Source: Seleniivibrio woodruffii (GTDB lineage: Bacteria > Chrysiogenota > Deferribacteres > Deferribacterales > Geovibrionaceae). Taken from it: a stretch of DNA of 64,000 bases. The position numbers and the translations under genes were made by a program. Positions within the stretch are counted from its first letter, which is position 1, and each line of letters opens with the position of its first letter. Under the pieces are notes generated by a model. The model made no database searches, had not been told where the DNA came from, and was given only the letters and a program-made list of their open reading frames with translations. This document shows positions 32,238 to 56,903 of this stretch, one piece after another. The stretch lies in NCBI RefSeq assembly GCF_004339245.1, contig NZ_SMGG01000003.1:461106-525105 (forward strand). The letters are read 5' to 3'.

Positions 32238-32263
32238 ATTTATAAACTTTCAAGGAAAAAGCA

Positions 32264-32893
32264 ATGAACATTACAGACAGCGACAGATATCTTGAAGCGA
32301 TGGCGGCGTTCTCGTTCTTCAACAAGGTTCTTCTGGACGCACCTGAAAAAGAATATATGGAGGGGTTCAGAGACAGTGTCGGCCTTCTGGACGAATGGCC
32401 TTTCCCGGAGAGTGCCGAATCGAAGACCGGACTGGAACTTCTCAAAAATTACCTGAAAAACTATACCGAAAGCGAATTACAGCCGCTTAAGGATAATTTC
32501 AATAAACTTTTCATAGGCCCCGGACATCTTTTCGCTCCGCCCTGGGAGTCGGTCTATAAAGAACAGGATCGCACTATTTTCGGCGAAGCAACACTTAAGG
32601 TCAGAAACAGATACAGAAAGTTCGGCCTTGAGATCCATAATCTCCACAAAGAACCCGACGACCACATGGCTTATGAATGTGCTTATCTCAACTTTCTCTG
32701 TGCAACTGCGGCGGCTGACGAAACCGCTGAGGATGTCAGAAAGGAGATTGCAGAGTTCATAAAAGACCATCCGGCAAGTTGGGTGGATGAATTTACTGAA
32801 AAAATGATAGAAAATTCGGCGACAGATTTTTATAAAGGCGTAGCGTATCTGTTGAAAGGCTCGCTCAATGAGGCTTTCGCAGTTTTTTCTTGA
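32264..32893 (+). CDS. TorD/DmsD-type redox enzyme maturation chaperone
   Basis: A 209-residue all-helical protein. It contains the family pattern of a mid-protein FIGPGHLFAPPWESVY segment and EPDDHMAYECAYLNFL. Such chaperones bind the Tat signal of their molybdoenzyme and hold it until the cofactor is inserted. Its partner is the DmsA-type protein in the same operon. It ends at a hairpin terminator. Confidence 0.88.
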   Translation: MNITDSDRYLEAMAAFSFFNKVLLDAPEKEYMEGFRDSVGLLDEWPFPESAESKTGLELLKNYLKNYTESELQPLKDNFNKLFIGPGHLFAPPWESVYKEQDRTIFGEATLKVRNRYRKFGLEIHNLHKEPDDHMAYECAYLNFLCATAAADETAEDVRKEIAEFIKDHPASWVDEFTEKMIENSATDFYKGVAYLLKGSLNEAFAVFS

Positions 32894-37135: not shown

Positions 37136-37155
37136 TTTGGCGGAGGTGCACGGGA
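37136..37155. repeat. Right copy of 20-bp repeat (attR-like), inside tRNA-Sec
   Basis: This copy is part of the intact tRNA-Sec gene, covering its acceptor 3' strand, CCA end and two more bases. It is identical to 33521-33540. Confidence 0.8.
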
Positions 37156-37233
37156 ATCGAACCCGCCTGACGCACAGGTGCGTCACCATCGGTTTTGAAG
37201 ACCGCAGGGGACACCAGTACCCCACACACCCCC
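37138..37233 (-). tRNA. selC: tRNA-Sec (anticodon TCA)
   Basis: On the minus strand the gene has an 8-bp acceptor stem (GGGGGTGT with GTGCACCTCC minus two inner bases), discriminator G, encoded CCA, a long variable arm (GACGCAC/GTGCGTC) and a TTC loop. The anticodon loop CTTCAAA has anticodon TCA (bases 37196-37198). Its length of 96 bases and 8-bp acceptor are hallmarks of bacterial tRNA-Sec. The organism therefore makes selenoproteins, though I see none in this window. Confidence 0.95.
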
Positions 37234-38225: not shown

Positions 38226-39722
38226 ATGAAGCACTCTTTATTGAGGAAAGGCCGTTCATTCATGGTAACGGCGGCGTTCGCTTCTGCGTTTGCGGTGCTT
38301 TCTGCTTGCGGCGGAGGCGGCGGTTCTTATGAGGCTCCGGCACCTACTCAGCCATCCAACGCATGGTGGAACGGATACGATGTTTCTGCCGAAACTCTTG
38401 TTTCTGCTGATACGGCTGTTCAGTGGATCAAGAACGGCTGGAAAACATCCGAAGGTTATCCCGTTATAATCGTTGACGTTCAGACTGATTTCACAGCTGC
38501 GTCAGACAGGATCATCGGCTCAATCAGAGGTAACAGTGCGGTGATCAACGGCTTTGCTCTGGATGAGTACAGGGCCGAAGGTCCCATCGACACTGTTGAT
38601 GCCAGAGCCACATCCGCAAGGATGGTGACCACAGGCGCAACGATGGACAAGATGATTCAGGACATGGGCGTGACAAAAGATACTGTCATAGTTTTTGCGA
38701 ATCAGGCTGTATCTTCAAGCGAATTCAACGCCACAAGAGCGTGGTGGACATTCTTCTACTGGGGATTTTCAGAGTCAAAGATCAAGATACTTGACGGCGG
38801 CGTTGCTGCTGTGAAGGCACTTGACGCTTCTCTGGTGGACACTGCAACAGTATCGGCTGACCCTGCGGACAGCACATTCTCCGTTAAGCAACTTCCCGGC
38901 CTGCATGATGCGGCCAGAGTCACCACCAAGAACGTTATCGACCTTGTAAGAGCGGGTTCTGCTTCAACAAAGATCATCGACGTAAGGGGTACTGATTCAC
39001 AGGGTTCAGTAGCGTTCAACGGACGTATCAAAGGCGCTGTAACTGGTATCAATGCGGCCAGCTTCATCAGCGGCGGCAAGTTTGTTGACAAGGCCACAGG
39101 CGAGGCTATCCTTGCGGCAAAAGGCATCACATCTGCCAGCAACATCATAGTTCATTGCGTGTCCGGCTACTCTGCGACACCTGTTTACTATTATATCAAA
39201 GAGGTTCTGGGATACCCCAACGTAGCTCTGTATGACGGTTCATGGTCTGCATGGTCAAGCCACGCCGGATATGAGCGCGGAGTTTCCTATGCTGCTCAGG
39301 CAGTATACTGGGGCGGATCTTCCTTCTACTGGTACACCGACACTGCAAGCGTTACGGCTGTGGGCAACCCCAACGGCGCAACTGCTGACAGCACAGGTGT
39401 GATAGCTCTGGGCGGTCCTCTTAAGGCGAATGTGAACTCAAACGTTCTTTCCTTCGACACTTTCAGGCTTTCAACAGTCGCACCCGTTGTTACATCCGGC
39501 AACGTGAGCACAACTGCTCAGACTGCAACAATGGCTGCAACAGCTAACTGGAAAGACGTATACGGCGCTCTGCTGTTCGTTTCCAACCCCGGCTACACAG
39601 GTACGGGAAATGAGATTGAAGAAGCGGACAAAGCCTATGTCGCTTCCGATGATGACGACGGTTCCGATTCCGGCGATGATTCGGGCGAACCCGTGACTCC
39701 CGGCGGACCCAGCGGCTGCTGA
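38226..39722 (+). CDS. Two-domain rhodanese-like lipoprotein (ExtH-like)
   Basis: A 498-residue protein. The start ATG 38226 has GGAGG 6 bases upstream. A signal peptide ends at lipobox LSAC (Cys28), then a Gly/Pro/Ser linker. There are two rhodanese domains. The first, about 75-210, has no Cys at its active loop (FANQAVSSSEF). The second, about 240-350, keeps it in VHCVSGYSATP. A C-terminal domain of about 110 residues ends with an Asp/Ser-rich tail and GPSGC. Rhodaneses move sulfane sulfur or bind chalcogen oxyanions. The gene leads a cluster in the same order as Geobacter extHIJKL, whose first gene encodes a rhodanese-like lipoprotein (from memory). Confidence 0.88.
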   Translation: MKHSLLRKGRSFMVTAAFASAFAVLSACGGGGGSYEAPAPTQPSNAWWNGYDVSAETLVSADTAVQWIKNGWKTSEGYPVIIVDVQTDFTAASDRIIGSIRGNSAVINGFALDEYRAEGPIDTVDARATSARMVTTGATMDKMIQDMGVTKDTVIVFANQAVSSSEFNATRAWWTFFYWGFSESKIKILDGGVAAVKALDASLVDTATVSADPADSTFSVKQLPGLHDAARVTTKNVIDLVRAGSASTKIIDVRGTDSQGSVAFNGRIKGAVTGINAASFISGGKFVDKATGEAILAAKGITSASNIIVHCVSGYSATPVYYYIKEVLGYPNVALYDGSWSAWSSHAGYERGVSYAAQAVYWGGSSFYWYTDTASVTAVGNPNGATADSTGVIALGGPLKANVNSNVLSFDTFRLSTVAPVVTSGNVSTTAQTATMAATANWKDVYGALLFVSNPGYTGTGNEIEEADKAYVASDDDDGSDSGDDSGEPVTPGGPSGC

Positions 39723-39741
39723 TTAAATCCGGAGAATAAAT

Positions 39742-40944
39742 ATGTTTAAAACAAAATTACTTACAGTGCTGATGCTTATGCTCATGTGCGCAGGAAGCGC
39801 ATTCGCCTTCAAGCCCATCGAGCTTGGCGAGGGCAAATATCTCCAGTTCTTTTATGACGCTCAGTTCGGCTACACAGGCAGAAACACCGGGAGCGGTGTT
39901 AACGCTGAAGACGACACTAACGAGTTCAACTTCAGAAGGAACAGGATAGGCTTCATCGGCACATACAACGAGAAGCTCAGCTTCTATGTTCAGACAGAAT
40001 ACATTGAAGACAAGAACGTAAACCCGCTTTATGTGGACATATCTGACGACGACAGCAAAGATTTTTATCTGCTGGATGCACAGCTCAGATACACACCATT
40101 TGAGAACGTTGACCTGATCGCAGGTAAGTTCAAACACTCTCTCACCAGAGAGAACCTTGAGGGATGTTTCAACCCTCTGACACTTGACCGTTCATTCTTT
40201 GTCTATGCTCCTTTCAAAACAAGCAGAGACAAGGGTGTCGGCGCACGTGCAGAGTTCTTTGACAACATGGTACAGGTAAGAGGTGAGATTCAGGAAGGCC
40301 GTACAGGCGATGCTGCCGACGGTTCACCCGATCCCGGTTCAAACCTCCGCTATACAGGCCGTATGCACCTTTCTCTGCTGGATAAAGAGACAGGCTACGG
40401 CTACAAGGGCACATATTTCGGCAAGATGAAAGTGCTTACGGTGGGCGCATCCTATCAGTATGAGCCCGACGCTGTTTACGGCGACGTTGCAAACCTTGCC
40501 GACAAAAAGGACTACGCCGCATATTCATATGATATTTTCGGCGAGTTTCCCACGGCAGCGGGTACCTTCACCCTTTCAGCCGCATATCTTAACGTAAGCT
40601 TTGACGATGCGTACAAGGGCACAAACCCCGACGCAAACTCATACGGTCAGAACGGCGAGCGTGACGGCTATTATGTTAAAGCGGGCTATATGCTCCCCTT
40701 CAACGTCGGCCCCGGACAGGTGCAGTTCTTCGGACGCTATGACAAGTTCGACTTCGCAAAACTCAACGGATACTATGACAACTCCGTGGATTTCATTGCG
40801 GGCGGCGTTAACTACTACATAGACGAAGACAAGATAAAGCTCACTGCACAGTATTCAAAAACAAACTTCGACAAAGAGGTCGGACAGGACACCAATATGC
40901 AGGATTTCGATACATTCGAACTGTATATGCAGGTCAGGTTCTGA
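39742..40944 (+). CDS. Outer-membrane beta-barrel porin (OprO/P-like; ExtI position)
   Basis: A 400-residue protein with a signal peptide ending AGSAFA. It has alternating aromatic strands throughout and terminates in QVRF, the C-terminal Phe expected of outer-membrane barrels. FNFRRNRIGFIGTYNEKLSF and LRYTPFENVDLIAGKFKHS resemble phosphate-selective OprO/OprP porins. It lies 19 bases after the rhodanese lipoprotein. In the comparable Geobacter cluster the second gene encodes the barrel ExtI, linked to selenite uptake. The solute here is unknown. Confidence 0.85.
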   Translation: MFKTKLLTVLMLMLMCAGSAFAFKPIELGEGKYLQFFYDAQFGYTGRNTGSGVNAEDDTNEFNFRRNRIGFIGTYNEKLSFYVQTEYIEDKNVNPLYVDISDDDSKDFYLLDAQLRYTPFENVDLIAGKFKHSLTRENLEGCFNPLTLDRSFFVYAPFKTSRDKGVGARAEFFDNMVQVRGEIQEGRTGDAADGSPDPGSNLRYTGRMHLSLLDKETGYGYKGTYFGKMKVLTVGASYQYEPDAVYGDVANLADKKDYAAYSYDIFGEFPTAAGTFTLSAAYLNVSFDDAYKGTNPDANSYGQNGERDGYYVKAGYMLPFNVGPGQVQFFGRYDKFDFAKLNGYYDNSVDFIAGGVNYYIDEDKIKLTAQYSKTNFDKEVGQDTNMQDFDTFELYMQVRF

Positions 40945-40963
40945 TAGTAAAGGAGAAAATGAT

Positions 40964-41179
40964 ATGAGAAAGAAGATCGGTATTATCGTGCTGGCCGTTA
41001 TGGTCATTTCGGCAGGAATAGCCGTTGCGGCTGCTAAGGCATCCAAAGGAAAAGTTGTCAGTGTTGACGGAACTAACATCACAATCAAGCTTGATGCTGC
41101 CATTGATGTTAAGGCCGGCGATGCTGTGAAGGTTGAGGCTGTGGGCGGTAAGCCCGGCTTTAAACTTCAGGGCTGCTGA
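40964..41179 (+). CDS. Small exported protein, 71 residues
   Basis: A signal peptide (GIIVLAVMVISAGIAVAAA) is followed by a 50-residue beta-rich domain with GKVVSVDGTNITIKLD and a terminal GFKLQGC. It lies 19 bases after the porin gene with AAGGAG upstream, and before a strong terminator. I do not recognise a named family; the fold could be a small beta-barrel. By position it corresponds to the small periplasmic ExtJ of Geobacter (from memory). Confidence 0.8.
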   Translation: MRKKIGIIVLAVMVISAGIAVAAAKASKGKVVSVDGTNITIKLDAAIDVKAGDAVKVEAVGGKPGFKLQGC

Positions 41180-41188
41180 TATTGTTTT

Positions 41189-41214
41189 AAGGCGGGGTTT
41201 CACCACCCCGCCTT
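41189..41214 (+). terminator. Strong hairpin terminator inside the cluster
   Basis: AAGGCGGGGT pairs perfectly with ACCCCGCCTT around a 6-base loop, followed by TTC. It separates the rhodanese-porin-small-protein unit from the cytochromes and probably sets their relative expression. Confidence 0.85.
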
Positions 41215-41248
41215 TTCTGCTATGATCTGCTGGGGGAGATAAATTCCG

Positions 41249-43117
41249 GTGCGAAAAAAACTGATATACATGTCTGCGGTAATTCTTTTTGTTCTGTGCG
41301 TATCTGTGACCGTGTATCTCGGTTTTTTCCGCAATGGTGATGTGTCTAGGGGCTGCATGGCCTCCAACTGCCATTCGGGGATAGAGTATCCTTCTGAAAA
41401 TCATAAAATTGCCTGCGAAGAGTGCCACGGCGGCGATCCGCTTTCGGCGGACAAGGCCGTTGCCCATGCGAAGATGCTGGGGGGCAGAAACCCCGGAGAC
41501 CCTGCCGTATGGGAAAAGACCTGCGGCAAATGCCATCAGTATCAGCTTGAGAGAGTTTCAGGCACGCTTATGTACACAGCCACTGGTATGATAAAAAACT
41601 CTCAGCAGGCATGGGACGACTATAAAGGCAAGCTTTACAGCACAGGGGGCGCAGAGGGGTATGACGAAAACGGAAAACCTCAGAAAAGGCCGTCCGTTGC
41701 TGAGCTTGATGAGCTTTCCGGCGAGCTTTACCGGAAATTCTGTTCCGCCTGCCATGTAGGCTACGATAAGCTGGAGGGCTACAGGGCGCATCACTCATCC
41801 GGCTGTTCCGCATGCCACTTTAACCATTCCGATGAAGGAACCTATGCGGGCGGGGACAAAACTATCCACGGAAAAGGCCCCTATCCCGAAAAGCATGTCA
41901 TTTCGGCTCTTCCATCGAACGACGTCTGTCTAACCTGCCACAACAGAAGCGGAAGGCTGGCTCTGTCATACGAAGGCTACTACGACGGCAACAACTCCCT
42001 CGTGCCCACAAAGGACGGCTACCCGGGTCCCGATCTTGTGGACGGGGTGCGCAACGTCCGCCACATGGAGGCGGACATACATTTCGGCTTCGGGATGGAC
42101 TGCATCGACTGCCACACCTCAAGGGATATGATGGGCGACGGCTATATGTATGAAAACATGTATCAGCAGATAGAGACCGCCTGCGAAGACTGTCACGGCA
42201 CAGAAAAAGCACTGCCCAAGACCATGAGGATAACCAAAGAGAACAGCACTCCCGTGCGGGAATCGCAGAACTATAAGGTCAGAATGAGCTACGGCGACGA
42301 GATGGTGCTCACCTCAAAGGGGCGTATGTACTCCAACGTAAGGAAGGAGAACGGAAAGTTCTATCTTTACACCAAGCGGGAGGGCAAACGTCTGGAGATA
42401 AAGACCGTTAAAGGGACACAGGATCACGGTGTTTCCGGTCACGGGCGTATGGAGTGCTACACCTGCCATTCCAATACCGTGGCGCAGTGCTACGGATGCC
42501 ACACCACATATGACAAAACAGAGAAAATGACCGACCTGATAAAAGGGCAGGATACTCCGGGCGCATTCAGCGAGACCGAGGATTTCAGGACACTTTTTCC
42601 TTTTCAGCTCGGACTGAACCAGAGGGGAAAAATATCGCCTGTTACCCCCGGATGTCAGACTTTCCTGACATATATAGACGAAAAGGGCAATAAGGTTCTG
42701 GATGATCACGTTTTCAACTACAGAGGCGAAAAAAAATTCAAGTTTGCACCGTTTTTCAGCCATAACACAGGGAAAAAAGCCGTGAGCTGTGAAACCTGCC
42801 ATTCGAAACTGGCGTTTGCGGGATTCGGTCAGGGGCTGGTTTCGGTGACAAAGGGGAACATCGGCAGTTCATATATGTGCGACAAGTGCGAAAAGCCTCT
42901 GGATTCGCTCTACAGTATTAAAGACGGAAAAATAAACGTAACCTCGGACGTTGTCCGTGACCACTCCCGACTGCTGAACACAGGGGAGCTGGCGGCGATG
43001 CTCCGTGCCAATACATGCATAATGTGTCATGAAAAAGGAGAAGGCAGAATATATGGCGGCAGAATCTCGTACGATGCTGTTCTTTCTGATCCTGTGCATA
43101 AGCCTCTGCTTCACTGA
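41249..43117 (+). CDS. Dodecahaem c-type cytochrome with N-terminal anchor
   Basis: A 622-residue protein with a GTG start after GGGGGAG. A hydrophobic helix (about 5-26) without a good cleavage or lipobox site suggests a membrane anchor facing the periplasm. Eleven CxxCH motifs are present (CEECH, CGKCH, CSACH twice, CLTCH, CIDCH, CEDCH, CYTCH, CYGCH, CETCH, CIMCH). One CMASNCH (Cx4CH) brings the total to twelve possible haems. It shares GRMECYTCHS and a Phe-Pro-containing region with the next protein, so the two are related. It should carry electrons within or across the periplasm. Confidence 0.88.
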   Translation: MRKKLIYMSAVILFVLCVSVTVYLGFFRNGDVSRGCMASNCHSGIEYPSENHKIACEECHGGDPLSADKAVAHAKMLGGRNPGDPAVWEKTCGKCHQYQLERVSGTLMYTATGMIKNSQQAWDDYKGKLYSTGGAEGYDENGKPQKRPSVAELDELSGELYRKFCSACHVGYDKLEGYRAHHSSGCSACHFNHSDEGTYAGGDKTIHGKGPYPEKHVISALPSNDVCLTCHNRSGRLALSYEGYYDGNNSLVPTKDGYPGPDLVDGVRNVRHMEADIHFGFGMDCIDCHTSRDMMGDGYMYENMYQQIETACEDCHGTEKALPKTMRITKENSTPVRESQNYKVRMSYGDEMVLTSKGRMYSNVRKENGKFYLYTKREGKRLEIKTVKGTQDHGVSGHGRMECYTCHSNTVAQCYGCHTTYDKTEKMTDLIKGQDTPGAFSETEDFRTLFPFQLGLNQRGKISPVTPGCQTFLTYIDEKGNKVLDDHVFNYRGEKKFKFAPFFSHNTGKKAVSCETCHSKLAFAGFGQGLVSVTKGNIGSSYMCDKCEKPLDSLYSIKDGKINVTSDVVRDHSRLLNTGELAAMLRANTCIMCHEKGEGRIYGGRISYDAVLSDPVHKPLLH

Positions 43118-44330
43118 AAGCGGCTTTGCGCTGGACAAAAATGATAAAAACTGCGCCGCCTGCCACAAGGTGACGCTGACCGGTGCCCACAAGGCGCAGA
43201 AGTGCGAATCGTGCCATGCCCGAAATGCCGACCATTTCGACCGTGCGGCTGATTTTTCAAAGGGTGCGGCGGGATGCCTGAACTGCCACAGAGAATATGC
43301 CGGCATAACCGACAGTGCCATGGTGCACCGCAGTGCGGAAAAAGTATTCGTTTCAAAATCATTTGAGAGATACGACGGCGGCTTCTGGGATAAGAACTGC
43401 AAAAACTGCCATGTGCAGAGCTGTTCGGACTGTCACCGCAGCGAAAACCCCCACAGCATAAAAAAACCTTCTGCGGACGACTGTCAGGAGTGCCACAGGG
43501 ACTACTATACAGGCATAGAATACAGCGGACTGGGACAGCGGGAGGATCACGAGCGGTATCAGCGGGGCAGGGAACACAAGGGCGGAAAATACGCCTCGAT
43601 GCTTAAGGACGTGCATTTTGAAAAGGGTATGCAGTGCGGCGACTGCCACTCCATGAAGAGTCTGGCCGAAGGGAGGAAATTCTCAAAAACCTGTACCGAC
43701 TGCCATCAGTTCAATAAAAACAGTTCCGTTGAGCATTCAATTCCCGAACACGGCAGAATGGAGTGCTACACCTGCCATTCCGCATGGGCAAATCAGGAGT
43801 ACGGAACTTTCTGGATATATATGCGTGATACGAAGTTCTCAGAATATTTCAGATGGGTCAAAAGACCGCATTTGGACTATGCTAAAAGCAGTCACACCAA
43901 GCAGTATGCGGATTTTCCCATCGGTGTTAACGAGCGGAAGAAGTATTCGCCGCTGAGGCCTCAGTTCATAGGCTTTGTGACCAGAATAGAGAAGGACAGG
44001 GTCATAGGCAAAGAGAACGAAATGGTTTCATCGGATTTCAGAGCTGTTTTTCCCCATACCGTCCGCAGGGAGACGGTGCTCTGCGAAAGCTGTCATGCCG
44101 ACAACAGAAGGCTCATGCGTGAGCGGATGGACGAGCGGATATATCACACAGACAGGGATGGTCTGCCCTTTCCGACATTTTACAACGGAAAATGGTTTTC
44201 CGTGACTAACGGCCGTTTTGTTAACGATTCCGAGTTTAAAAGGATAAAGAGCAAAGGAGCGAAATATAACAAAGCATTGCTTAAAAAATGGCAGCAGGTG
44301 ACAAAAACTGTAGAAAACTCAAAAAAATAA
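43053..44330 (+). CDS. Decahaem c-type cytochrome
   Basis: A 425-residue protein with ten CxxCH motifs (CAACH, CESCH, CLNCH, CKNCH, CSDCH, CQECH, CGDCH, CTDCH, CYTCH, CESCH). I take ATG 43053, which has AAGGAG upstream; 43029 and 43074 are alternatives. It begins inside the last 65 bases of the previous cytochrome gene in another frame, so translation is coupled. The N-terminus is a signal peptide (TMLFFLILCISLCF). Shared motifs with the upstream cytochrome suggest duplication. Likely periplasmic. Confidence 0.85.
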   Translation: MAAESRTMLFFLILCISLCFTESGFALDKNDKNCAACHKVTLTGAHKAQKCESCHARNADHFDRAADFSKGAAGCLNCHREYAGITDSAMVHRSAEKVFVSKSFERYDGGFWDKNCKNCHVQSCSDCHRSENPHSIKKPSADDCQECHRDYYTGIEYSGLGQREDHERYQRGREHKGGKYASMLKDVHFEKGMQCGDCHSMKSLAEGRKFSKTCTDCHQFNKNSSVEHSIPEHGRMECYTCHSAWANQEYGTFWIYMRDTKFSEYFRWVKRPHLDYAKSSHTKQYADFPIGVNERKKYSPLRPQFIGFVTRIEKDRVIGKENEMVSSDFRAVFPHTVRRETVLCESCHADNRRLMRERMDERIYHTDRDGLPFPTFYNGKWFSVTNGRFVNDSEFKRIKSKGAKYNKALLKKWQQVTKTVENSKK

Positions 44331-44553
44331 GATAATGAGTTAAATCTATAGAAATCATCTATGTTAAAACATAATAGTAGTATTTGTCTAATATATTTAT
44401 AATCAATATTTTTATGCTTTCTTATTGTATACAGTATTTGTTAGTTATTTTTTATCTGAAATATTATTGACTTTTCCTTTAGATTTATTATTATGGTGTA
44501 AGTTCACTTAGTATACGAATGCTCCCTCCCTTGCAATAATCAAGAGGGACATT

Positions 44554-46746
44554 ATGATCAAAAACAGAATCTCCCGCAGACGGTTCTTACAGGGAACCCT
44601 TGCCACTGGTGCGGCAGCGGCGTCCCTGTCATCTATCAGTCTCATAGCCGGAGAGGTCAGCCAACCTGCCCCCACAGGAGTGACATACGCCCAGAACTGG
44701 TGCGAGATGTGTTTCTGGAAATGCGGTTTAACCGCAAAGGTTGTGGATGGTAAAGTGCATAAGCTGGAGGGTCAGAAAGACTGCCCCAGCAACAGAGGAA
44801 AACTCTGCGCAAAAGGCAATGCGGGCATTGCCCAGCTTTACGATCCCGACAGGCTCCAGAAGCCTCTTATCAGAACAGGCGAAAGAGGCTCCGGTCAGTT
44901 CAAAGAGGTTTCATGGGACGAGGCGATTAAATACGTCGCCGAAAAATGCAACGGCCTTAAAGAAAAATACGGCTCCGGAACCTTCTCGCTGTTTGCCCAC
45001 GGTTCCGGCGAGCATGCCTTTGTTGACCTCCTGCACATCATGGGTTCTCCCAACATCTGCATTCCGTCCTATTCACAGTGTACGGGCAGCAGGGACATCG
45101 GCTGGGCACTGACCTACGGTAAACCTGTCGGCGGAAAAGAGCCTGTGGATTCGGAGAATGCGAAGTGCATAATGCTGCTCGGCCGTAACATTGCCGAGGC
45201 TCTCCACATGGGCGAGCTTATTGATTTCATCAACGGCTGTGCAAACGGTGCCTACGTTATTTATGTTGACCCCAGATATAACAAAACGGCGGCCAAAGCG
45301 AACAAATATATGATGATCAAACCCGGAACGGACACCGCTCTGGTTCTGGCAATGATCAACTACATCATTGTTAAGGAAATATACAACAAAGAGTTTGTGG
45401 AGAAGTACACTTACGGGCTGGAGGAGCTTTCCGCCCATGTGCGCCGCTACACGACCAAATGGGCATCCGAAGTAACCGAGATCCCCGAAAAAGATATAAT
45501 CGAAGCCGCTGTGAAACTCTGCGAAGCGGCTCCCAACTGCTACATCCACCCCGGACGCCGCCTCACAAGATACGGCAGCGACACCCAGTTCGTAAGAGCC
45601 ATTGCAATCCTCAACGCTCTTATGGGCAACTGGGAAACGCCGGGCGGAATTTTCAAACCCGTTCCCCTCAAGTTCGATACGCCCCATATGGTCCATGACC
45701 TTGAAAAGGTGGATGCCGAGCGTGCCGACGGAGCGGGCACAGAGTTTCCCATAGCATCCGTAGACCTTGGTCTTGCGAACAAAATGATGCAGGCCATTGC
45801 CGAGCAGAAGCATCCGCTCAAAGGTATGTTCGTTTACGGGTGCAACCCTTTCCACAATCAGGGCAGCACCGACGTTGTGGCAAAGGCCATCGAGGCCAGC
45901 GAATTTATCGTTACCTGCGAGATATACATGACCGACACCGCATGGTATTCGGACGTTATTCTTCCTGAATCCACCTATCTGGAGAGATATGACCCCATCA
46001 TATCCACAGCCAGAAAGTCAGGCTATATCCAGTTCCGTGAGCCTGCGGTGAAGCCTCTTCACGATACTCTGGGAGCATGGGAGATAGCCGCCAGACTGTC
46101 AAAGGCTATGGGATATCAGAACCATTTCATGGACGTCAGGGAATATAACACCGAGCTTCTGGAATCGCTGGGGCTCAGCGAAAAAGTTATGCAGAAGCAC
46201 GGCTCACTGGTGGGTGCGGAGGGCGATCCCTTCCCGCTGGCATCGGGCATCGAGCCTGAGTTCCATACTCCTTCAGGCAAGATCGAGCTTTTCAGCAACA
46301 TGCTGAACGATCTCGGGTATGATCCCCTGCCCTCATATCAGGCACCTCCTATGCCCAAAGCCGATGAGTTCCGTCTGCTGTTCGGCCGTGTGAGCTTCCA
46401 TACACACGCCAGAACCCAGAACAACGAATGGCTGCTGGCACTGCACCACTCCGAGGTCGAGCTCTGGATAAATTCCGGACGTGCGAAGGCTCTGGGAATA
46501 AAGAACGGGGACAAGGTCTGCGTTACCAAGGGTAATAAGAAGAGCAACCCCTGCATTGCAAAGGTTGTTGACCATATCCACAGGGACGCAGTGTTTCTGC
46601 CCCACGGCTTCGGTTCTGTCAGCAAGGGTCTGACCAGAATATCCGGTGTCGGCGCAAGGGATTCCGATTTCACATCGGACGAAACAGACCCCATCAGCGG
46701 CGGAGCAGGTTTCCACAACGGCTTTGTCAGAATAGTTAAGGCATGA
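44554..46746 (+). CDS. psrA: PsrA/PhsA-type molybdoenzyme (polysulfide/thiosulfate reductase catalytic subunit)
   Basis: A 730-residue enzyme. It has a twin-arginine signal (SRRRFLQGTL), a 4Fe-4S site C50-x2-C53-x3-C57-x27-C85 and the Mo-ligand Cys176 in SQCTGSRDIGWALTYG, the hallmark of the PsrA/PhsA/SrrA group. The end has the pterin-binding YSDVILPESTYLERYD and GFGSVSKGLT stretches. It reduces polysulfide, thiosulfate, or in SrrA selenite, at the periplasmic face. PsrB and PsrC follow. The gene sits directly after the cytochromes and before a bc-like complex. Substrate specificity within the group cannot be read. Confidence 0.92.
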   Translation: MIKNRISRRRFLQGTLATGAAAASLSSISLIAGEVSQPAPTGVTYAQNWCEMCFWKCGLTAKVVDGKVHKLEGQKDCPSNRGKLCAKGNAGIAQLYDPDRLQKPLIRTGERGSGQFKEVSWDEAIKYVAEKCNGLKEKYGSGTFSLFAHGSGEHAFVDLLHIMGSPNICIPSYSQCTGSRDIGWALTYGKPVGGKEPVDSENAKCIMLLGRNIAEALHMGELIDFINGCANGAYVIYVDPRYNKTAAKANKYMMIKPGTDTALVLAMINYIIVKEIYNKEFVEKYTYGLEELSAHVRRYTTKWASEVTEIPEKDIIEAAVKLCEAAPNCYIHPGRRLTRYGSDTQFVRAIAILNALMGNWETPGGIFKPVPLKFDTPHMVHDLEKVDAERADGAGTEFPIASVDLGLANKMMQAIAEQKHPLKGMFVYGCNPFHNQGSTDVVAKAIEASEFIVTCEIYMTDTAWYSDVILPESTYLERYDPIISTARKSGYIQFREPAVKPLHDTLGAWEIAARLSKAMGYQNHFMDVREYNTELLESLGLSEKVMQKHGSLVGAEGDPFPLASGIEPEFHTPSGKIELFSNMLNDLGYDPLPSYQAPPMPKADEFRLLFGRVSFHTHARTQNNEWLLALHHSEVELWINSGRAKALGIKNGDKVCVTKGNKKSNPCIAKVVDHIHRDAVFLPHGFGSVSKGLTRISGVGARDSDFTSDETDPISGGAGFHNGFVRIVKA

Positions 46747-46757
46747 CGGGGGAGAAA

Positions 46758-47321
46758 ATGAAAAAGAAATACGCAATGGCATATATTGTGGACCGGTGCG
46801 TCGACTGCAAGGCCTGCATGGTGGCTTGCAAGGCCGAATGGGAAGTGCCGGAGGATAAGTTCCGAACACACATCGACACGGGTGTCAGCCCCGACTATAC
46901 GGACACCATGAGGATGCACTTTCTGCCTCACCAGTGCAACCACTGCGACGATGCCCCCTGTGTCACAGTATGCCCAACAAAGGCAAGCTACAAAAGGGAG
47001 GACGGGATCGTTTCCGTCAACCAGAAGATATGTGTCGGCTGTAAATACTGCATCGTCTCCTGCCCCTACGACGCCAGATTCTTTAACCATGAACTGGGTG
47101 TGGCGGAGAAATGCACTTTCTGCCTGCCAAGAATAGCAGAAGGACTCGCCCCCGCATGTGTAACAACCTGCCCGGGCAATGTCAGGGTGTTCGGCGACAT
47201 AAACGACCCGAACAGTGAAATATCCGCTCTGCTGAGGGATGCCGCAACAAACCACTATAAGGTCTGGAAACTGCGGCAGGATCTGGGCACTCGCCCCAAT
47301 ATCTATTACATACAGAAGTAG
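46758..47321 (+). CDS. psrB: PsrB-type ferredoxin subunit
   Basis: A 187-residue protein. ATG 46758 has GGGGGAG upstream; an in-frame ATG at 46743 overlaps the psrA stop. It has four cysteine groups for 4Fe-4S clusters (CVDCKACMVACKAEW, CNHCDDAPCVTVCP, CVGCKYCIVSCPYD and CTFC...CVTTCPG). It passes electrons between the NrfD-type membrane subunit and the PsrA-type enzyme. Confidence 0.93.
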   Translation: MKKKYAMAYIVDRCVDCKACMVACKAEWEVPEDKFRTHIDTGVSPDYTDTMRMHFLPHQCNHCDDAPCVTVCPTKASYKREDGIVSVNQKICVGCKYCIVSCPYDARFFNHELGVAEKCTFCLPRIAEGLAPACVTTCPGNVRVFGDINDPNSEISALLRDAATNHYKVWKLRQDLGTRPNIYYIQK

Positions 47322-47330
47322 GAGGGCGGA

Positions 47331-48260
47331 ATGGTTTTTCAGGAAGCGTTTGAATGGTATATCGCCGTATATCTGTTTCTGGCCGGAGTCGGTGCGGGAG
47401 CTATAGTTGCGGCTGTTCTGGCGGATATGTACGACAGGGAGAAATATCTCTCTTTCATCAAAGCCGCCAGTGTAATAGGTATGCCTCTGGTGAGCATCGG
47501 TATATTCTTTCTGTATATCGATCTGGGACAGGGTATGTGGAAGCCTTGGCTGCTTCTTCTGCTGTTTGTCAACCCCACTTCGGCAATATCGTGGGGAACA
47601 GGCATTCTTACCCTTTTCACGATATTCTCAATGCTGTATGCTGTCTACAATCTCGGACTGTCGAGATACTTCCGCTTTGCAGGCGGCTGGCTGCCGAGAC
47701 TTCTGGACGGAATGGGCGGCAGCGGCTGGATGAGATGGATGCTGGTGATAACCGGAATCTGTACGGCAGGCTACACCGCAGTTCTTCTGGGTGTGCTCAG
47801 AGCCATACCCTTCTGGCATCAGACAGCACTGCCCATACTGTTCATAATCTCCGCAACCTCAACAGGTATCTCCGGAGCGATGATTGTGCGGGAGCTTGCA
47901 TTCAGAACCGAAGACAGCATGCACAAAATAGAGACCACGCACTTCTATCTGATAGTGCTTGAGATTCTGCTTCTGGCGGGCATGTTCTTCATTGCTATGC
48001 AGGGTGTGCCGGAAATGCAGTTTTCGGCGAAGAGCCTTTTAAACGGCAGATTTGCCATTGAGTTCTGGGTGGTTCTGGTGTTTCTGGGACTGCTTGTTCC
48101 GGCGGTTGTTTTTGCGCTGGGCGAGAGCGGCAGACTGCATCTTAAAGGCGGGAAGCTGATATTTTTTGAAGCGTTGGTGCTTCTGGGCGGATATTTCCTG
48201 CGTTTTCTCATAGTTCACGCAGGGGTTTATACCCAGAAGTTTACGGACTATATCCAGTAG
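47331..48260 (+). CDS. psrC: NrfD/PsrC-type quinol-oxidising membrane subunit
   Basis: A 309-residue integral membrane protein with about eight helices. It opens with EAFEWYIAVYLFLAGVGAGA, the NrfD-family start. The family oxidises menaquinol (or reduces quinone) and anchors PsrAB. It is 9 bases after psrB, with AGGAGGGCGG as ribosome site, and ahead of a hairpin (48270-48293) and the Rieske gene. Confidence 0.92.
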   Translation: MVFQEAFEWYIAVYLFLAGVGAGAIVAAVLADMYDREKYLSFIKAASVIGMPLVSIGIFFLYIDLGQGMWKPWLLLLLFVNPTSAISWGTGILTLFTIFSMLYAVYNLGLSRYFRFAGGWLPRLLDGMGGSGWMRWMLVITGICTAGYTAVLLGVLRAIPFWHQTALPILFIISATSTGISGAMIVRELAFRTEDSMHKIETTHFYLIVLEILLLAGMFFIAMQGVPEMQFSAKSLLNGRFAIEFWVVLVFLGLLVPAVVFALGESGRLHLKGGKLIFFEALVLLGGYFLRFLIVHAGVYTQKFTDYIQ

Positions 48261-48269
48261 GTTTAACGG

Positions 48270-48293
48270 GCGGGGGCTCTCCGGAGCTCCTGC
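48270..48293 (+). terminator. Hairpin between psrC and the Rieske gene
   Basis: A 10-bp stem with two G-T pairs around a 4-base loop, followed by TTTCAT. It is a weak terminator or processing site between the two sub-operons. Confidence 0.5.
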
Positions 48294-48316
48294 TTTCATA
48301 TATCAACGGGGGCTGA

Positions 48317-48721
48317 ATGGCTGTTTCCAGACGGAGTTTTCTGAAAAGACTGACATATTTTGCGGCGGGTGCGGCAGGACTCTGGGGTCTTTTCAGATAC
48401 CTCACTCCGCCTTCTGCTGGCGGGGAGATAATTCTCAGCGTCAGGTCAACGGATATTCCGGAGGGGGGTGCGCTCATCTTTGCAGACAGGCAGACCGCTG
48501 TTCTGCGCAAAGATGGCAGAATAACGGCTCTCTCAATGACCTGCACACATCTGGGCTGTACGGTTTCCCTCGACGGCGACAGGTTTGCCTGTCCCTGCCA
48601 CGGGAGCATATTTTCTCTGGACGGAGGCGTTATCAAAGGGCCTGCGGTCAAGCCGCTTACAGAATATGCTTTTGAAGAGAAGAACGGCATCCTGACGGTT
48701 TTCAGAAGGAGCGTCTCTTGA
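48317..48721 (+). CDS. Rieske 2Fe-2S protein of a bc-like complex
   Basis: A 134-residue protein with a twin-arginine N-terminus (SRRSFLKRLT) and a membrane anchor helix. Cluster ligands are in CTHLGC (C76, H78) and CPCHGS (C92, H95), with C81 and C94 as the disulfide. It is short compared with bc1 Rieske proteins and resembles the small b6f-like type. It is translationally coupled to the cytochrome b gene by a TTGA overlap. Confidence 0.93.
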   Translation: MAVSRRSFLKRLTYFAAGAAGLWGLFRYLTPPSAGGEIILSVRSTDIPEGGALIFADRQTAVLRKDGRITALSMTCTHLGCTVSLDGDRFACPCHGSIFSLDGGVIKGPAVKPLTEYAFEEKNGILTVFRRSVS

Positions 48722-49749
48722 TATCCCGTTTTTTTACACACCTTTTTCCTGTGACCTTCAACAGAGACACCCTCTCTTTCCGTAAGACAGGATATCTGGG
48801 CATCATTTCCGCCGCCCTGTTCATCCTGCTCATGCTGACAGGGGTTCTGCTGATGTTCTATTACTCTCCGGAGGCTTCGGCGGCATACGGCTCGGTTCTT
48901 TTCCTTGAGGAGAAGATATCCGGCGGGGAATTTATCCGTTCGCTCCACCGCATGTGCTCCCATATGCTTCTGGTGGTCATGGCTCTGCATCTGCTCAGGA
49001 CGGTCTTCTGCGGAGTTTATGCCGCAAGAGCGAGTAACTGGAAACTGGGCTATATCCTTTTCGGGCTGATAGTTTTTGAAGCTTACACAGGATACCTGAT
49101 GCCGATGGATCAGCTCTCTTTCTGGGCGACCAGAACGGGAATGGAGCTGATGAATACACTGCCGGGAGGAGCTCTGCTCAAAACTCTGCTGATGCCCGAC
49201 GATGTGGGCGGAAGGCTCACCCTTCTGCGTTTCTATGCACTTCATATCGTTTTCATACCCGTGCTGACGCTTATTCTGCTGTCGGCACATCTTTATAATA
49301 TACGGCGGGACGGCGGACTTCTGCCCATGGCGGAACCTGAGAAGGTGAAGGACAGGGACAGGCTGGTGCGGTTCAGCCTGCTTATATCCGCAGTTACTGT
49401 TGCGGCGGCTGTTGTTCTGTCGCTTATATTCAAAAGCCCTCTGGAGCTTCCTGCCGATCCCGCATCGCCGCCGAACCCTGCCAAGAGTGCATGGTTTCTG
49501 CTCTGGATTCAGGAGGTTGTCAGCTGGCGTGCGTCGCTGTTCAATGCCGCAGCGGTGCTGTTTGTGCTGTGCTATTTCCTGCCGGACTACGGCAGAAGGT
49601 TTGTTTATGAAAGAGCTGTCTGGTTTCCGCATGAGGGCAGGCGGGTCTGGATTTTCATGCTTGCGCTGACGGTTCTGATTGTCGTGCTGACCGTCATTGC
49701 CATGTTTTTCAGGGGGGCGAATTGGGAACTCGTGCCTTTCTGTTTCTGA
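48718..49749 (+). CDS. Cytochrome b (b6/subunit-IV fusion type)
   Basis: A 343-residue membrane protein with a TTG start overlapping the Rieske stop. Haem ligands are H77 and H91 in helix B and H176 and H191 in helix D, a 14-residue gap as in b6-type proteins. The later PPNPAKSAWFLLWIQEV is the subunit-IV signature. A quinol-oxidising PEWY-like motif is not evident. Together with the Rieske protein and the following cytochrome c it makes a compact bc complex. Confidence 0.92.
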   Translation: MISRFFTHLFPVTFNRDTLSFRKTGYLGIISAALFILLMLTGVLLMFYYSPEASAAYGSVLFLEEKISGGEFIRSLHRMCSHMLLVVMALHLLRTVFCGVYAARASNWKLGYILFGLIVFEAYTGYLMPMDQLSFWATRTGMELMNTLPGGALLKTLLMPDDVGGRLTLLRFYALHIVFIPVLTLILLSAHLYNIRRDGGLLPMAEPEKVKDRDRLVRFSLLISAVTVAAAVVLSLIFKSPLELPADPASPPNPAKSAWFLLWIQEVVSWRASLFNAAAVLFVLCYFLPDYGRRFVYERAVWFPHEGRRVWIFMLALTVLIVVLTVIAMFFRGANWELVPFCF

Positions 49750-50486
49750 TATTTCTGCTGTTTTCATATGATGTATTCGCCTGCGGTCAGTGCCATAAAC
49801 CGCACTATGCGGGATATGGCGACTGTGCGGTCTGCCACAGGGGTGAGGTGCGCTCGTCCAGAGAGAACGTTGCCCATGCGGGACTCATCACTGGAAAATT
49901 CGCCGGATTCTATACGGATAAAAAAGCTGTTTCCGGGGGTGATAAGCTGGCTTATGAATCAGCATGCCGCAGGTGTCACCGCATAGGAGCCGAGGGAGAG
50001 AGTGCGGCGGCAGACCTCAACGCCTCAGCGGCGAAGAACACAGGAGAGTATCTTGACGATAAAATCAGGAACGTGAACGAATATATGCCCGACTTCCGGT
50101 TCAGCGATGAGGAGCGCAGAAAACTGATCCTCTATCTGCTGAACGAATCCTCCAAAAGCTCAAAAAAAGTTTCCGAACCCTATGTCGCATACATAACCTC
50201 ATCCGGTAAAGGAGCCTTTGAAAAGTACTGCGGCGGGTGCCACCGCATGCTCACCCGAAAGGGCGGAGGCAGAGGAACCGGAAGCGAAGCCGTGAATCTG
50301 TCAGGTGTTACGGGTAAATATTTCAGGTCTCAGGTTCTTTCTGCGAATGAAAAGCTGCGGACGGAGAAGCGTCTGGCGGAATGGATAAGAAACCCCAGAA
50401 GCATAAAGAAAAACTCCGTGATGCCCCCTGTCCGTATAGACGAAGCAAATATTTCAAAGGTCATTAAAGAACTGAAAGGCAACTGA
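49722..50486 (+). CDS. Tetrahaem c-type cytochrome of the bc-like complex
   Basis: A 254-residue protein with a TTG start overlapping cytochrome b by 28 bases. A signal peptide (FLFLIFLLFSYDVFA) is followed by CGQCH, CAVCH, CRRCH and CGGCH. The last two each sit in a monohaem cytochrome-c-like domain (MPDFRFSDEERRKLILYL and MPPVRIDEANISKVIKEL). It takes the place of cytochrome c1 and would deliver electrons to the periplasmic cytochromes of the cluster (inference). Confidence 0.88.
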   Translation: MGTRAFLFLIFLLFSYDVFACGQCHKPHYAGYGDCAVCHRGEVRSSRENVAHAGLITGKFAGFYTDKKAVSGGDKLAYESACRRCHRIGAEGESAAADLNASAAKNTGEYLDDKIRNVNEYMPDFRFSDEERRKLILYLLNESSKSSKKVSEPYVAYITSSGKGAFEKYCGGCHRMLTRKGGGRGTGSEAVNLSGVTGKYFRSQVLSANEKLRTEKRLAEWIRNPRSIKKNSVMPPVRIDEANISKVIKELKGN

Positions 50487-53564: not shown

Positions 53565-56282
53565 ATGAGACAGATTACGCTGAGCAGAAGATCTGTTTTG
53601 AAAGCGGCCGGTATTGCCGGGGCTGCATCGCTTATGGGCGTCAACCTCAGCCCTGCGCATGCGGCGGAGGCGGCGGCAAAGGACAGAACGGAGCAGCTTC
53701 TGAAAGACGGCTGGCATTTCGGCCACTGCCGTATGTGTATGAGAGGAACATGTCCCAACCTTTACAGGGTGCAGAACGGAGTTGTGGTTGAGATAATGGG
53801 TAACCCCAAAACCCCCACAAGCAAAGGCGCACTCTGCGCAAAAGGTCAGTCGATCATCCAGAACCTTTACAACCCCTACAGGGTAAAAACCCCCATGAAA
53901 AGAACAAATCCGAAAAAAGGTCTCTCCGAAGACCCGATGTGGGTTGAGATATCATGGGAAGAAGCAATGAGCACCACGGCGGGTGTGCTTAAAAAAGTGA
54001 GAGAGAGAGACCCCAGACGTTTTGTTTATACGGTGGGTTTCGGCGATATGGACTTTTTCTGTACTTTCCTGTTCTATTTTGCAGGAGCATACGGAACGCC
54101 CAACTACCTTAAAAGCAACGGTACTCTCTGCGTTCTCCACTACGCATCCGACCTTGTCCACGGTGTTTTTCCCGGTGTTAAACCCGATGCGACCTATGCG
54201 AAATACATCCTTGCCATGGGCATGAACCTTGGAATGGGTATCGCATCATCAGACGGCGGAGTAAGAGGCCTTCTCGACAGAGTTGTTTACGAAAAAGATA
54301 TAAAAGTGGTCTGCGTGGATCCCCACTGCGGTCCCGATGCTTCAAAGACAGAATGGGTGCCGATACGCCCCGGAGGCGAGCTGGCATTCATGATGGGCGT
54401 TATCCACAGTATGATATTCGAAGTGAAGAAACTCGACTTCGATTTCCTCCAGTGGCGCACAAACTCGCCCTATCTGATAGGTCCCGACGGCTACTACGCC
54501 AGAGGAACCGACGGCAAACCCCAGATACTCGACTCGGCTGACGGCAAGGTCAAATCCTTTGACGACCCGACGCTGAAAACACCCGATATTTATGCTGTGA
54601 ATGTTGATGTGAACGGCGTTAAAGCCACCGCATCTTTTGTCCATGTTAAAAACGGATTCAAAACATACACCCCCGAATGGGCGGCAAAAAAATCCGGCAT
54701 CCCTGCCAAAAAGATACGTCAGATCGCCAAAGACTTCATAGATAATGCAAGCATCGGCGAAACCATAGAGCTTATGAACGGTAAGGGTGAAAAAGTGATC
54801 CTGCCCAAAAGAACCTCTGTATGCGAAGGAAAACGGGGCATAAAAAACATGCGTGACGGCGTTCCCGCAGACCTTATGACAAAGATGATGAACATGTTGG
54901 TGGGTTCGATTGACGTCCCCGGCGGTATGCTCGGAACCCAGAGAGGACCTTATCTGAAACCTGATAAGGATGGCGTTGTTGAGCCCAAAGGCGAAGCTCG
55001 CTACAAAGACCCTGTCTATCCTCCTCAGCATCTCAACCTGTCGGAGTATTTCCCGCACAAACACACCCTGCCCACTCTGGCGTTCAAGGTTGCCGCTGAC
55101 CCTAAAAAATACGGGCTTGAATACGAGGTCGACGCACTGCTCACTGTAGGCGGAAACCCCATTGCAAGCACCACAGAGCCTTATGCGGTTGCAGATTCGG
55201 TTGCGAAGATACCCTTCTCCGCAACTGTTGCATACCATTATGACGAAATGGCGCACATGTCTGATATCCTGCTTCCCTGCCATGCGCTTCTGGAAAAAGA
55301 ATCCGTGAACTGCTACGAGGGTGCGTTCGACGTTTACACCAAAGAGACTGTCACCAAAAAAGTCATGATGTACAGAGAACCTTTCAAACCTGTCTACAAC
55401 TCAAGACAGCCGCAGGACATCATCATCGAGCTTTGCGAAAGGATCGGCATGATCAACGAGTTCAACGCCAACGTCAACAAGACCGGTGTAATGCTCGGTG
55501 AGATCACCTTTGCCAAACTGCCCGAAGCCGACAAACTCCAGCCCGGTGTCCGCTACTCCATCAGAGAGATATGGGACAGAGGCGTGCGTTCATACTTCCA
55601 CAAGTCTCTGGCAGATATGGCCAAAGAAGGTATGCTTGTAATGGATCTGGCTCCTGCGGACGCATATAACTCCTCATGGTTTAAAAAGGGCGAAACCAGA
55701 CACCCCGTCTATTTTGAACGTCTCAAAAAATCCGGCGACGGCCTGCGCAAGTTCTTTACAGAGTATAAGGACAAGGTCTATCTGCCCGATTTCGACCTCG
55801 ACGATCAGCTCCAGTATTATGAAGCGGTCATCAAATGGCGTCCGAAAAAGCTCACCGAAGTCAAAAAAGGCGATAAATACGACATGATATCCATCAACTG
55901 GAAGACTCCGACATCTCCCATGAGAAGTGCCGGAAACGACCAGATGCCCTATCTGAACGAAGCCAGCGAAACCTTTGACCCCGCATACGGCAAGTTCTCC
56001 ATCAACACGAAGACAGCCAAAGAGAAGGGTATCAAAGAGGGCGATACCATATGGGTTGAATCCGAAAGCGGCAAGATCAAAGGTCAGGTGCATATCACAG
56101 AGCTTATCTTCCCCGATGTTGTCGGTGTTGCCGGTGCGCTGGGACGTCTGGTGGACAGTCTCGGCAAAAAAGCCGCTTCATACCCAATGTACAACAAACT
56201 GACCAACGCCAAGATATCCGATTGCTGCGCTGTGGCCATCGGCGTGTCTAACTCCGTTCCGGTCAGAATCTATAAGGCGTAA
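53565..56282 (+). CDS. Respiratory molybdoenzyme of the ArrA/ArxA/TtrA/SoeA-like group, substrate unknown
   Basis: A 905-residue enzyme with a twin-arginine signal (LSRRSVLKAAG) and a cleavage site near AHAAEA. The 4Fe-4S ligands are C55-x2-C58-x4-C63-x27-C91 (HCRMCMRGTCP). The motifs NPYRVKTPMKRTNPKKGL and SPYLIGPDGYYARG are shared with arsenate, arsenite, tetrathionate and sulfite-type enzymes. Cys189 in GTLCVLHYASDLVHG is the likely Mo ligand. The arsenate-reductase diagnostic region is not recognisable, so I do not call it arrA. A ferredoxin subunit, chaperone and porin follow; a membrane subunit does not, so the enzyme is probably soluble in the periplasm and fed by a cytochrome. Confidence 0.85.
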   Translation: MRQITLSRRSVLKAAGIAGAASLMGVNLSPAHAAEAAAKDRTEQLLKDGWHFGHCRMCMRGTCPNLYRVQNGVVVEIMGNPKTPTSKGALCAKGQSIIQNLYNPYRVKTPMKRTNPKKGLSEDPMWVEISWEEAMSTTAGVLKKVRERDPRRFVYTVGFGDMDFFCTFLFYFAGAYGTPNYLKSNGTLCVLHYASDLVHGVFPGVKPDATYAKYILAMGMNLGMGIASSDGGVRGLLDRVVYEKDIKVVCVDPHCGPDASKTEWVPIRPGGELAFMMGVIHSMIFEVKKLDFDFLQWRTNSPYLIGPDGYYARGTDGKPQILDSADGKVKSFDDPTLKTPDIYAVNVDVNGVKATASFVHVKNGFKTYTPEWAAKKSGIPAKKIRQIAKDFIDNASIGETIELMNGKGEKVILPKRTSVCEGKRGIKNMRDGVPADLMTKMMNMLVGSIDVPGGMLGTQRGPYLKPDKDGVVEPKGEARYKDPVYPPQHLNLSEYFPHKHTLPTLAFKVAADPKKYGLEYEVDALLTVGGNPIASTTEPYAVADSVAKIPFSATVAYHYDEMAHMSDILLPCHALLEKESVNCYEGAFDVYTKETVTKKVMMYREPFKPVYNSRQPQDIIIELCERIGMINEFNANVNKTGVMLGEITFAKLPEADKLQPGVRYSIREIWDRGVRSYFHKSLADMAKEGMLVMDLAPADAYNSSWFKKGETRHPVYFERLKKSGDGLRKFFTEYKDKVYLPDFDLDDQLQYYEAVIKWRPKKLTEVKKGDKYDMISINWKTPTSPMRSAGNDQMPYLNEASETFDPAYGKFSINTKTAKEKGIKEGDTIWVESESGKIKGQVHITELIFPDVVGVAGALGRLVDSLGKKAASYPMYNKLTNAKISDCCAVAIGVSNSVPVRIYKA

Positions 56283-56294
56283 CGGGAGGATGCA

Positions 56295-56903
56295 ATGAGA
56301 TACGCAATGATACTTGATAGAAGAAGATGTTATGCCTGTCAGGGCTGCACTGTTGCATGTAAAGTCGCAAATGCCACGCCTCCGGGAACGTTCTGGACAA
56401 AGACCCTTTCCGTTGAAAAGGGAAAGTTCCCCAATGCGCATATGGAGTATATGCCCCTGATATGCAACCACTGCGACAACGCTCCCTGTGTTCACGTCTG
56501 TCCCACAAAGGCATCGAAAAAACTCGCCGACGGCACAGTTCAGGTGACGGCATCAGAGTGTATCGGCTGTCAGATGTGTATGGAGGCCTGCCCCTACGGC
56601 GCAAGGTATTTCAACAGCGACGACAAGCCTACCTACTGGAGCGAAACAGGAAAGCAGAGCGAATATGAGGCCGCAAGGATGAAAGAGCACGTAACCAACA
56701 CTGTTGATAAGTGCACATTCTGCGCCCCCAGACGTGAGAAAGGCCTTACACCTGCGTGTGTTGCCACATGTCCCGGTGTTGCAAGATTTTTCGGCGATCT
56801 GGACGACCCCGAAAGCGAGGTCTCCAAGCTCTTCAAAAAATATAACCCCAAACCTTATAAACCTGAAAAGGGAACGAGACCGAGGGTTTTCTACATCGAG
56901 TAA
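56295..56903 (+). CDS. Four-cluster ferredoxin subunit of the molybdoenzyme
   Basis: A 202-residue PsrB/ArrB-type protein. Cysteine groups are CYACQGCTVACKVAN, CNHCDNAPCVHVCP, CIGCQMCMEACPYG and CTFC...CVATCPG. It ends with TRPRVFYIE, as its PsrB relative at 46758 does with TRPNIYYIQ. It lies 12 bases after the catalytic gene, with GGGAGG as ribosome site. Exported together with the Tat partner. Confidence 0.92.
   Translation: MRYAMILDRRRCYACQGCTVACKVANATPPGTFWTKTLSVEKGKFPNAHMEYMPLICNHCDNAPCVHVCPTKASKKLADGTVQVTASECIGCQMCMEACPYGARYFNSDDKPTYWSETGKQSEYEAARMKEHVTNTVDKCTFCAPRREKGLTPACVATCPGVARFFGDLDDPESEVSKLFKKYNPKPYKPEKGTRPRVFYIE

Follow-up and report, generated by a model that had tools for sequence, protein, structure and literature searches.

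An ext-type gene cluster of Seleniivibrio woodruffii that contains PsrABC and lacks ExtKL

In Geobacter sulfurreducens the cluster extHIJKLMNOPQS includes the cytochromes ExtM, ExtN and ExtS with 12, 10 and 4 haems, respectively, and loss of ExtI impairs the reduction of selenite and tellurite while that of Fe(III) citrate is spared (PMC5877670); in other ext clusters ExtH is often swapped for divergent rhodaneses (PMC6148476). Here we analyzed a window of 64 000 nucleotides from Seleniivibrio woodruffii, of the phylum Deferribacterota (contig NZ_SMGG01000003.1, positions 461 106 to 525 105), in which eleven consecutive open reading frames (ORFs) at 38226–50486, all on the plus strand, make up such a cluster in another composition. 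Homologues of ExtH, ExtI, ExtJ, ExtM, ExtN, ExtO, ExtP, ExtQ and ExtS are found here in the relative order kept in Geobacter and with the same 12, 10 and 4 haems, whereas ExtKL is missing and a PsrABC-type molybdoenzyme lies between extN and extO. PsrABC is the sole part foreign to the Geobacter cluster and ExtKL is the part lost; searches for this pentahaem selenoprotein gave strong matches in three control genomes from elsewhere, but detected no homologue in the S. woodruffii genome or in 50 further genomes of its phylum. As judged from sequence comparisons, it is quite possible that the locus represents a Psr-coupled variant of the selenite/tellurite-type ext respiratory cluster, with a chalcogen relay leading to PsrA.

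Gene labels were assigned by Pfam and NCBIfam profile searches using the curated NCBI family cut-offs, which ExtI, ExtJ, ExtM, ExtN and ExtS exceed and below which ExtH and a fused ExtP/Q score. The cluster opens with an ExtH-type lipoprotein (38226–39722), a tandem rhodanese with lipobox Cys28, active-site Cys311 and a Gly-rich tail running to Cys498, whose match to NF040901 spans the whole profile though under its cut-off (E 3.9e-48, 164.5 bits, cut-off 200). It continues with ExtI (39742–40944; NF040900, 533 bits, cut-off 150), a predicted OprP/OprO-type outer-membrane porin with a lone conserved Cys142, and with ExtJ (40964–41179; NF040942, 56.5 bits, cut-off 52.5), an exported protein of 71 residues, as compared to 104 in Geobacter, having the C-terminus LQGC. 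Two large c-type cytochromes follow, being the 12-haem ExtM (41249–43117; NF040943, 935 bits, cut-off 800; 11 CXXCH and one CX4CH motif) and the 10-haem ExtN (43029–44330; NF040967, 459 bits, cut-off 200; 10 CXXCH). All three Psr subunits are present, with a PsrA/PhsA/SrrA-type catalytic subunit carrying molybdenum–bis(pyranopterin guanine dinucleotide), a twin-arginine translocation (Tat) signal, the molybdenum-ligand Cys176 and one iron–sulfur cluster (44554–46746; Pfam Molybdopterin, Molydop_binding and Fe4S4), the ferredoxin-type iron–sulfur subunit PsrB (46755–47321, its start taken as 46755; Fer4_11, E 3e-30) and the NrfD-type quinol-oxidizing membrane subunit PsrC (47331–48260; NrfD, E 2e-34). 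In its three subunits of these types, Tat signal and Cys ligand the enzyme is like the known PsrABC, PhsABC and SrrABC, and it is unlike them in being embedded in an ext cluster. The last genes encode the Rieske protein ExtO (48317–48721; Rieske, E 1e-14, with the Rieske cluster motif and a twin-arginine start), a cytochrome b in which ExtP and ExtQ, unlike in Geobacter, are fused into one ORF (48718–49749; NF040969, 181 bits at 2–201, and NF040970, 105 bits at 223–339, both under cut-off), and the tetrahaem c-type cytochrome ExtS (49722–50486; NF040971, 215 bits, cut-off 100; four CXXCH).

An earlier note on this DNA had listed the eleven genes in this order and had counted 12, 10 and 4 haems, and both points were confirmed, the former by domain matches (rhodanese, Porin_O_P, PsrA/PhsA-type molybdenum subunit, iron–sulfur, NrfD, Rieske and cytochrome b) and the latter by motif count; the kinship that it proposed of the barrel with ExtI and of the rhodanese with ExtH is likewise clear by profile, in the case of ExtH at a score under the family cut-off. 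It had taken the five leading genes as extHIJKL, which holds for ExtH, ExtI and ExtJ, while an ExtK/ExtL identity of the two large cytochromes is ruled out by their scores over the ExtM and ExtN cut-offs. Since the note used the name extHIJKL (PMC6148476), ExtM and ExtN were mistaken for ExtK and ExtL and the rest of the cluster for an added bc complex; of the coupling it described, PsrABC is truly an addition, but the ‘bc-like complex’ is ExtO–ExtP/Q–ExtS, already part of the Geobacter cluster. The two quinol-oxidizing modules that it noticed are both there (PsrC of the NrfD type, and ExtO/PQ), and the haem numbers, thought to exceed those of Geobacter, are the published Geobacter numbers.

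ExtI was found in 21 of 51 genomes of the phylum, its nearest named relatives (85–87% identity) being in Seleniivibrio and related genomes, and the order of the genes on either side of each ExtI was examined over as much as 20 kb. The order seen in the window is kept in three further genomes of the genus, in Denitrovibrio acetiphilus (G022) and in G028. Families f3 and f5 have H-I-J-PsrABC, a small exported protein and O-P-Q-S with M or N close by, and family f4 has H-I-J-PsrABC, with neither M, N nor OPQS in the stretch that was read. G023 and G024, two genomes lacking ExtI, carry PsrABC, a small protein and M-N-O-PQ-S. The PsrA studied here forms its own Deferribacterota clade, being 30–44% identical to the other PsrA-like proteins of the phylum, and its orthologues (at least 52% identity) lie beside ext genes in 15 of 15 genomes. 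The linkage of PsrABC with ext genes is more than chance or a local accident, and the genes at 38–44 kb and 44–50 kb, which the earlier note required to co-occur elsewhere if they were to form a joint machine, were together in many other genomes. In several ext-linked clusters (L035, L037, L039, L224 and L225), though not in the window, PsrC is followed by a small exported protein of repeat-like sequence, about 110–145 residues long.

Beyond the phylum, 25 loci came from a scan of named genomes, among them one from a metagenome-assembled genome (MAG) labelled Deltaproteobacteria (L066) with the order H-I-J-PsrA-PsrB-PsrC. In Desulfuromonadia, the class of Desulfuromusa, ExtI scored over its cut-off in 87 of 277 genomes, and many of the 74 regions in which gene order was read have H-I-J-KL-M-N-O-P-Q-S. 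The order in L151, L168 and L179 of this class is (H)-I-J-Psr-M-N-O-P-Q(-S), in H-I-M-N-O loci of other genomes PsrABC precedes ExtI by 7.5–9 kb, and in at least 18 genomes PsrA and ExtI share a strand and are no more than 15 kb apart, some weaker PsrA matches having been left out. When Desulfuromonadia loci were instead centred on PsrA, ExtM followed it in 15 of 20, mostly without ExtHI, and three others were cut by a contig end. In L144 and L188 OPQS comes directly after PsrAB with no PsrC homologue between, suggesting that ExtO/P/Q may serve PsrAB. In some genomes of the class ExtH-ExtI or ExtI-J-KL units are also found in tandem, at a spacing of about 5 kb (L127, L163, L170 and L173).

The position directly after ExtI–ExtJ was taken by ExtKL in 31 and by Psr in six of 70 loci, and by both together in none (Fisher p 0.03, with kinship not corrected for); in L187, PsrABC lies 9.6 kb further on. 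ExtJ was present in 37 of 37 loci having ExtKL or PsrA in that slot versus four of the 33 others (p 1e-15, likewise uncorrected). As the presence of ExtJ tracks a filled slot, ExtJ would seem to be tied to the reductase, with ExtKL and PsrABC likely being functional alternatives. In a tree of 54 PsrA sequences, with topology hypotheses assessed by the approximately unbiased (AU) test, the ext-linked PsrA proteins of Deferribacterota form one clade; two Desulfuromonadia groups and a third group, on long branches (L144, L151, L188 and L190), fall outside it. Joining that clade with the main Desulfuromonadia groups was rejected (AU p 0.0044), as was a single origin of all ext-linked PsrA (AU p 2.8e-5 for monophyly, to be read with the long branches in mind). 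Since the ext-linked PsrA proteins are not one clade, Psr was either recruited recurrently or replaced by another Psr inside an old partnership, with the same caveat.

The three proteins of the outer-membrane part carry conserved cysteines. ExtH and ExtJ of the window both terminate in Gly-Cys, an ending present in 60 of 60 ExtJ sequences, and a C-terminal Cys is found in 92 of the 98 ExtH sequences. The six exceptions have the look of fragments or of different rhodaneses, together with the ExtH beside the ExtI of L049. Three cysteines are conserved in ExtH, at the lipobox (28), in the rhodanese domain (311) and at the C-terminus (498). As a control, of 584 unrelated long ORFs just 11 have Cys as their last residue, and the single Gly-Cys one among these occupies the ExtH position of L168. 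Rhodaneses adjoining PsrA in loci without ExtI have no C-terminal Cys. Directly upstream of PsrA in Desulfuromonadia there are also rhodanese-type proteins (L264, L270, L277, L279 and L280), several of which carry a single haem motif and none of which is Cys-terminated. Cys142 of ExtI is kept in 104 of 105 sequences, being in most the sole cysteine of the mature protein, and lies within the most conserved stretch of ExtI, between predicted strands 5 and 6. In 16-stranded porins the constriction loop L3 is located between strands 5 and 6, which would place Cys142 in the likely constriction loop, at the pore. The sole ExtI with Ser142 (L049) has a neighbouring ExtH without the C-terminal Cys, no ExtJ was found there, and this locus shares its contig record with the MAG locus L060 (Deferribacteraceae TD116_bin76). 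By text search, two published ext papers (PMC5877670, PMC6148476) do not mention these cysteines except for ExtI having one cysteine, and neither they nor the slot alternation were met in the literature searched, which left out most subscription papers.

A Gly-flanked C-terminal cysteine carrying sulfur has a precedent in SoxY (PMC6067878), with its GGCGG arm. The likeness is in idea only, that of an exported protein with a C-terminal Gly-flanked Cys able to hold a sulfur intermediate, and we claim no homology; unlike in SoxY the Cys is the very last residue in ExtH and ExtJ, and ExtH is itself a rhodanese. SbtM, a radical S-adenosylmethionine thio(seleno)oxazole maturase, was considered as acting on the C-terminal Cys and was set aside, as the literature has it for precursors of ribosomally synthesized and post-translationally modified peptides.

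The ExtI model (predicted local distance difference test score, pLDDT, 82) is 16-stranded, with OprP (2o4v) as its best match (Z 29.3, root-mean-square deviation 2.9 over 320 residues), although the match list does not exclude other barrels and the fold is a prediction. ExtI is thereby like the phosphate porins OprP and OprO in its predicted barrel, and unlike them in carrying a lone, almost invariant Cys142 within a strongly conserved loop (LTRENLE-x-C-F in this protein), at about 20% identity. It is thus modelled as an OprP-like porin rather than a large Mtr-type conduit barrel, with passage of anions predicted. The earlier note had left the barrel as either substrate entry or electron exit, and as the model is unlike the barrels of cytochrome-in-barrel conduits, entry is favoured over exit. 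Porin–cytochrome conduits of the Mtr/Omb type differ further in their outer-surface multihaem lipoprotein cytochrome; the cytochromes encoded here are homologues of ExtM, ExtN and ExtS, and a rhodanese makes up the outer lipoprotein. For ExtH, the model matches thiosulfate sulfurtransferases of two domains, its C-terminal third being disordered, and since the tail and residues 347–457 have pLDDT below 50, the position of the arm cannot be read from it.

If the cluster is a Psr-coupled ext variant, an anion would pass or dock at the porin ExtI, and the rhodanese lipoprotein ExtH would load it, or sulfane sulfur or selenium from it, onto a cysteine. The chalcogen would then be moved to the periplasm via thiols, namely Cys498 on the Gly-rich arm of ExtH, Cys142 of ExtI and the C-terminal Cys71 of ExtJ, to be reduced there by PsrA, a molybdenum reductase that would stand in for the Geobacter selenoprotein cytochrome ExtKL. 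Electrons from menaquinol would reach PsrA via PsrB and PsrC, with a second feed possibly coming from the ExtO–PQ Rieske/cytochrome b complex through ExtM, ExtN and ExtS. We infer the relay with its direction and these paths of the electrons, as well as the substrate, selenite or a related sulfur, selenium or tellurium species. Going by the three lone cysteines, the outer-membrane part would seem to transfer sulfur or selenium and not electrons; that ExtH–ExtI–ExtJ make up a thiol relay across the outer membrane, by which external selenium, tellurium or sulfane sulfur would reach an exchangeable reductase (ExtKL or PsrABC), is a speculative proposal that we hold to be rather unlikely as it stands.

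Several points weigh against the Psr-coupled reading. Both association tests, for the slot and for ExtJ, ignore phylogeny; the placing of Cys142 in the pore comes from strand order and not from coordinates; and the cysteines may alternatively serve for attachment or have a structural role. In Mucispirillum-type genomes HIJMN is present while an orthologue of this PsrA is lacking. The whole cluster may work as one machine, but in the three genomes of genus g3, Geovibrio-like in our reading, its two halves are at separate loci, HIJMN at one and PsrABC-OPQS at another, and taken together with a promoter-like site at 44467–44494, in the 224-base gap upstream of psrA, this makes two transcription units possible. 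Finally, PsrA, PhsA and SrrA are one lineage in published trees, in which polysulfide, thiosulfate and selenite reductases are not separated (PMC7331816, PMC10100899), so that phylogeny does not fix the substrate.

The substrate is also where the strongest rival enters, a plain polysulfide or thiosulfate respiratory cluster in which ExtH would act as Wolinella Sud, which binds polysulfide (PMC3397948), ExtI would admit polysulfide and PsrABC would reduce it, with selenite reduction in Geobacter as a side activity. The closest solved relative of this PsrA, the Thermus structure 2vpw (E 1.5e-155), was indeed deposited as thiosulfate reductase, and a rhodanese is found in almost all arrangements, counting the rhodanese-type proteins that precede PsrA in loci lacking ExtHI. 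However, S. woodruffii and D. acetiphilus, the genome of which carries the ext-linked PsrABC, are tabled as not reducing S0 despite several psrABC clusters (PMC6896113), which speaks against S0 or polysulfide for the ext-linked enzyme and leaves thiosulfate unaffected. We consider this rival somewhat unlikely and, given that table and the need for ExtI in normal selenite and tellurite reduction by Geobacter, take selenite or a related chalcogen as first choice and thiosulfate as second.

It is less probable still that two independent systems are mere neighbours, HIJMN being an outer-membrane module and PsrABC-OPQS a separate quinol-linked enzyme with no common substrate. The Geovibrio-like loci and the gap before psrA would fit with this, as would an unrelated opposite-strand ORF between extN and psrA in D. 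acetiphilus and the 31 Desulfuromonadia genomes that lack ExtI but have PsrA matches above 500 bits, of which those sampled show PsrABC-MNOPQS. Such independence is nonetheless improbable in our view, as the joining recurs in two phyla with different PsrA lineages, PsrA comes straight after ExtI–ExtJ in several families, and ExtM and ExtN travel with PsrABC too. An extracellular conduit, with electrons leaving via ExtI to outside acceptors, is very improbable, for although a G. sulfurreducens strain with extHIJKL only retained up to 50% of the wild-type reduction of Fe(III) oxide and 75% of that of Mn(IV) oxide (PMC6148476), extHIJKL is described as being without an outer-membrane cytochrome (PMC6148476), Fe(III) citrate reduction survives extI deletion (PMC5877670) and ExtI is modelled as an OprP-like porin.

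Apart from the cluster, the window holds a selenocysteine tRNA gene just upstream of it (37142–37233, minus strand) and, about 5 kb upstream, a DmsA/YnfE-type molybdenum enzyme of the dimethyl sulfoxide/selenate family scoring over cut-off, with an iron–sulfur subunit and a TorD-like protein (28883–32893). A TorA/BisC-family molybdenum enzyme adjoins a histidine kinase and a response regulator (24709–27090), and at 53565–58853 another molybdenum enzyme has its own porin, this second periplasmic-type molybdoenzyme (905 residues) lying with an iron–sulfur subunit, a TorD-like protein (Nitrate_red_del) and an OprD-family porin.

Alternating as they do in one slot, ExtKL and PsrABC are candidate terminal reductases for selenite and tellurite reduction of the Geobacter ext type, and they are predicted to be interchangeable. 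The three lone cysteines give targets for point mutation in the genetically tractable Geobacter, by which passage of chalcogen could be told from that of electrons through the outer-membrane module. The thiol relay, if true, would comprise a surface rhodanese, a cysteine within a porin and a small periplasmic carrier, a route unlike both cytochrome conduits and plain porins.

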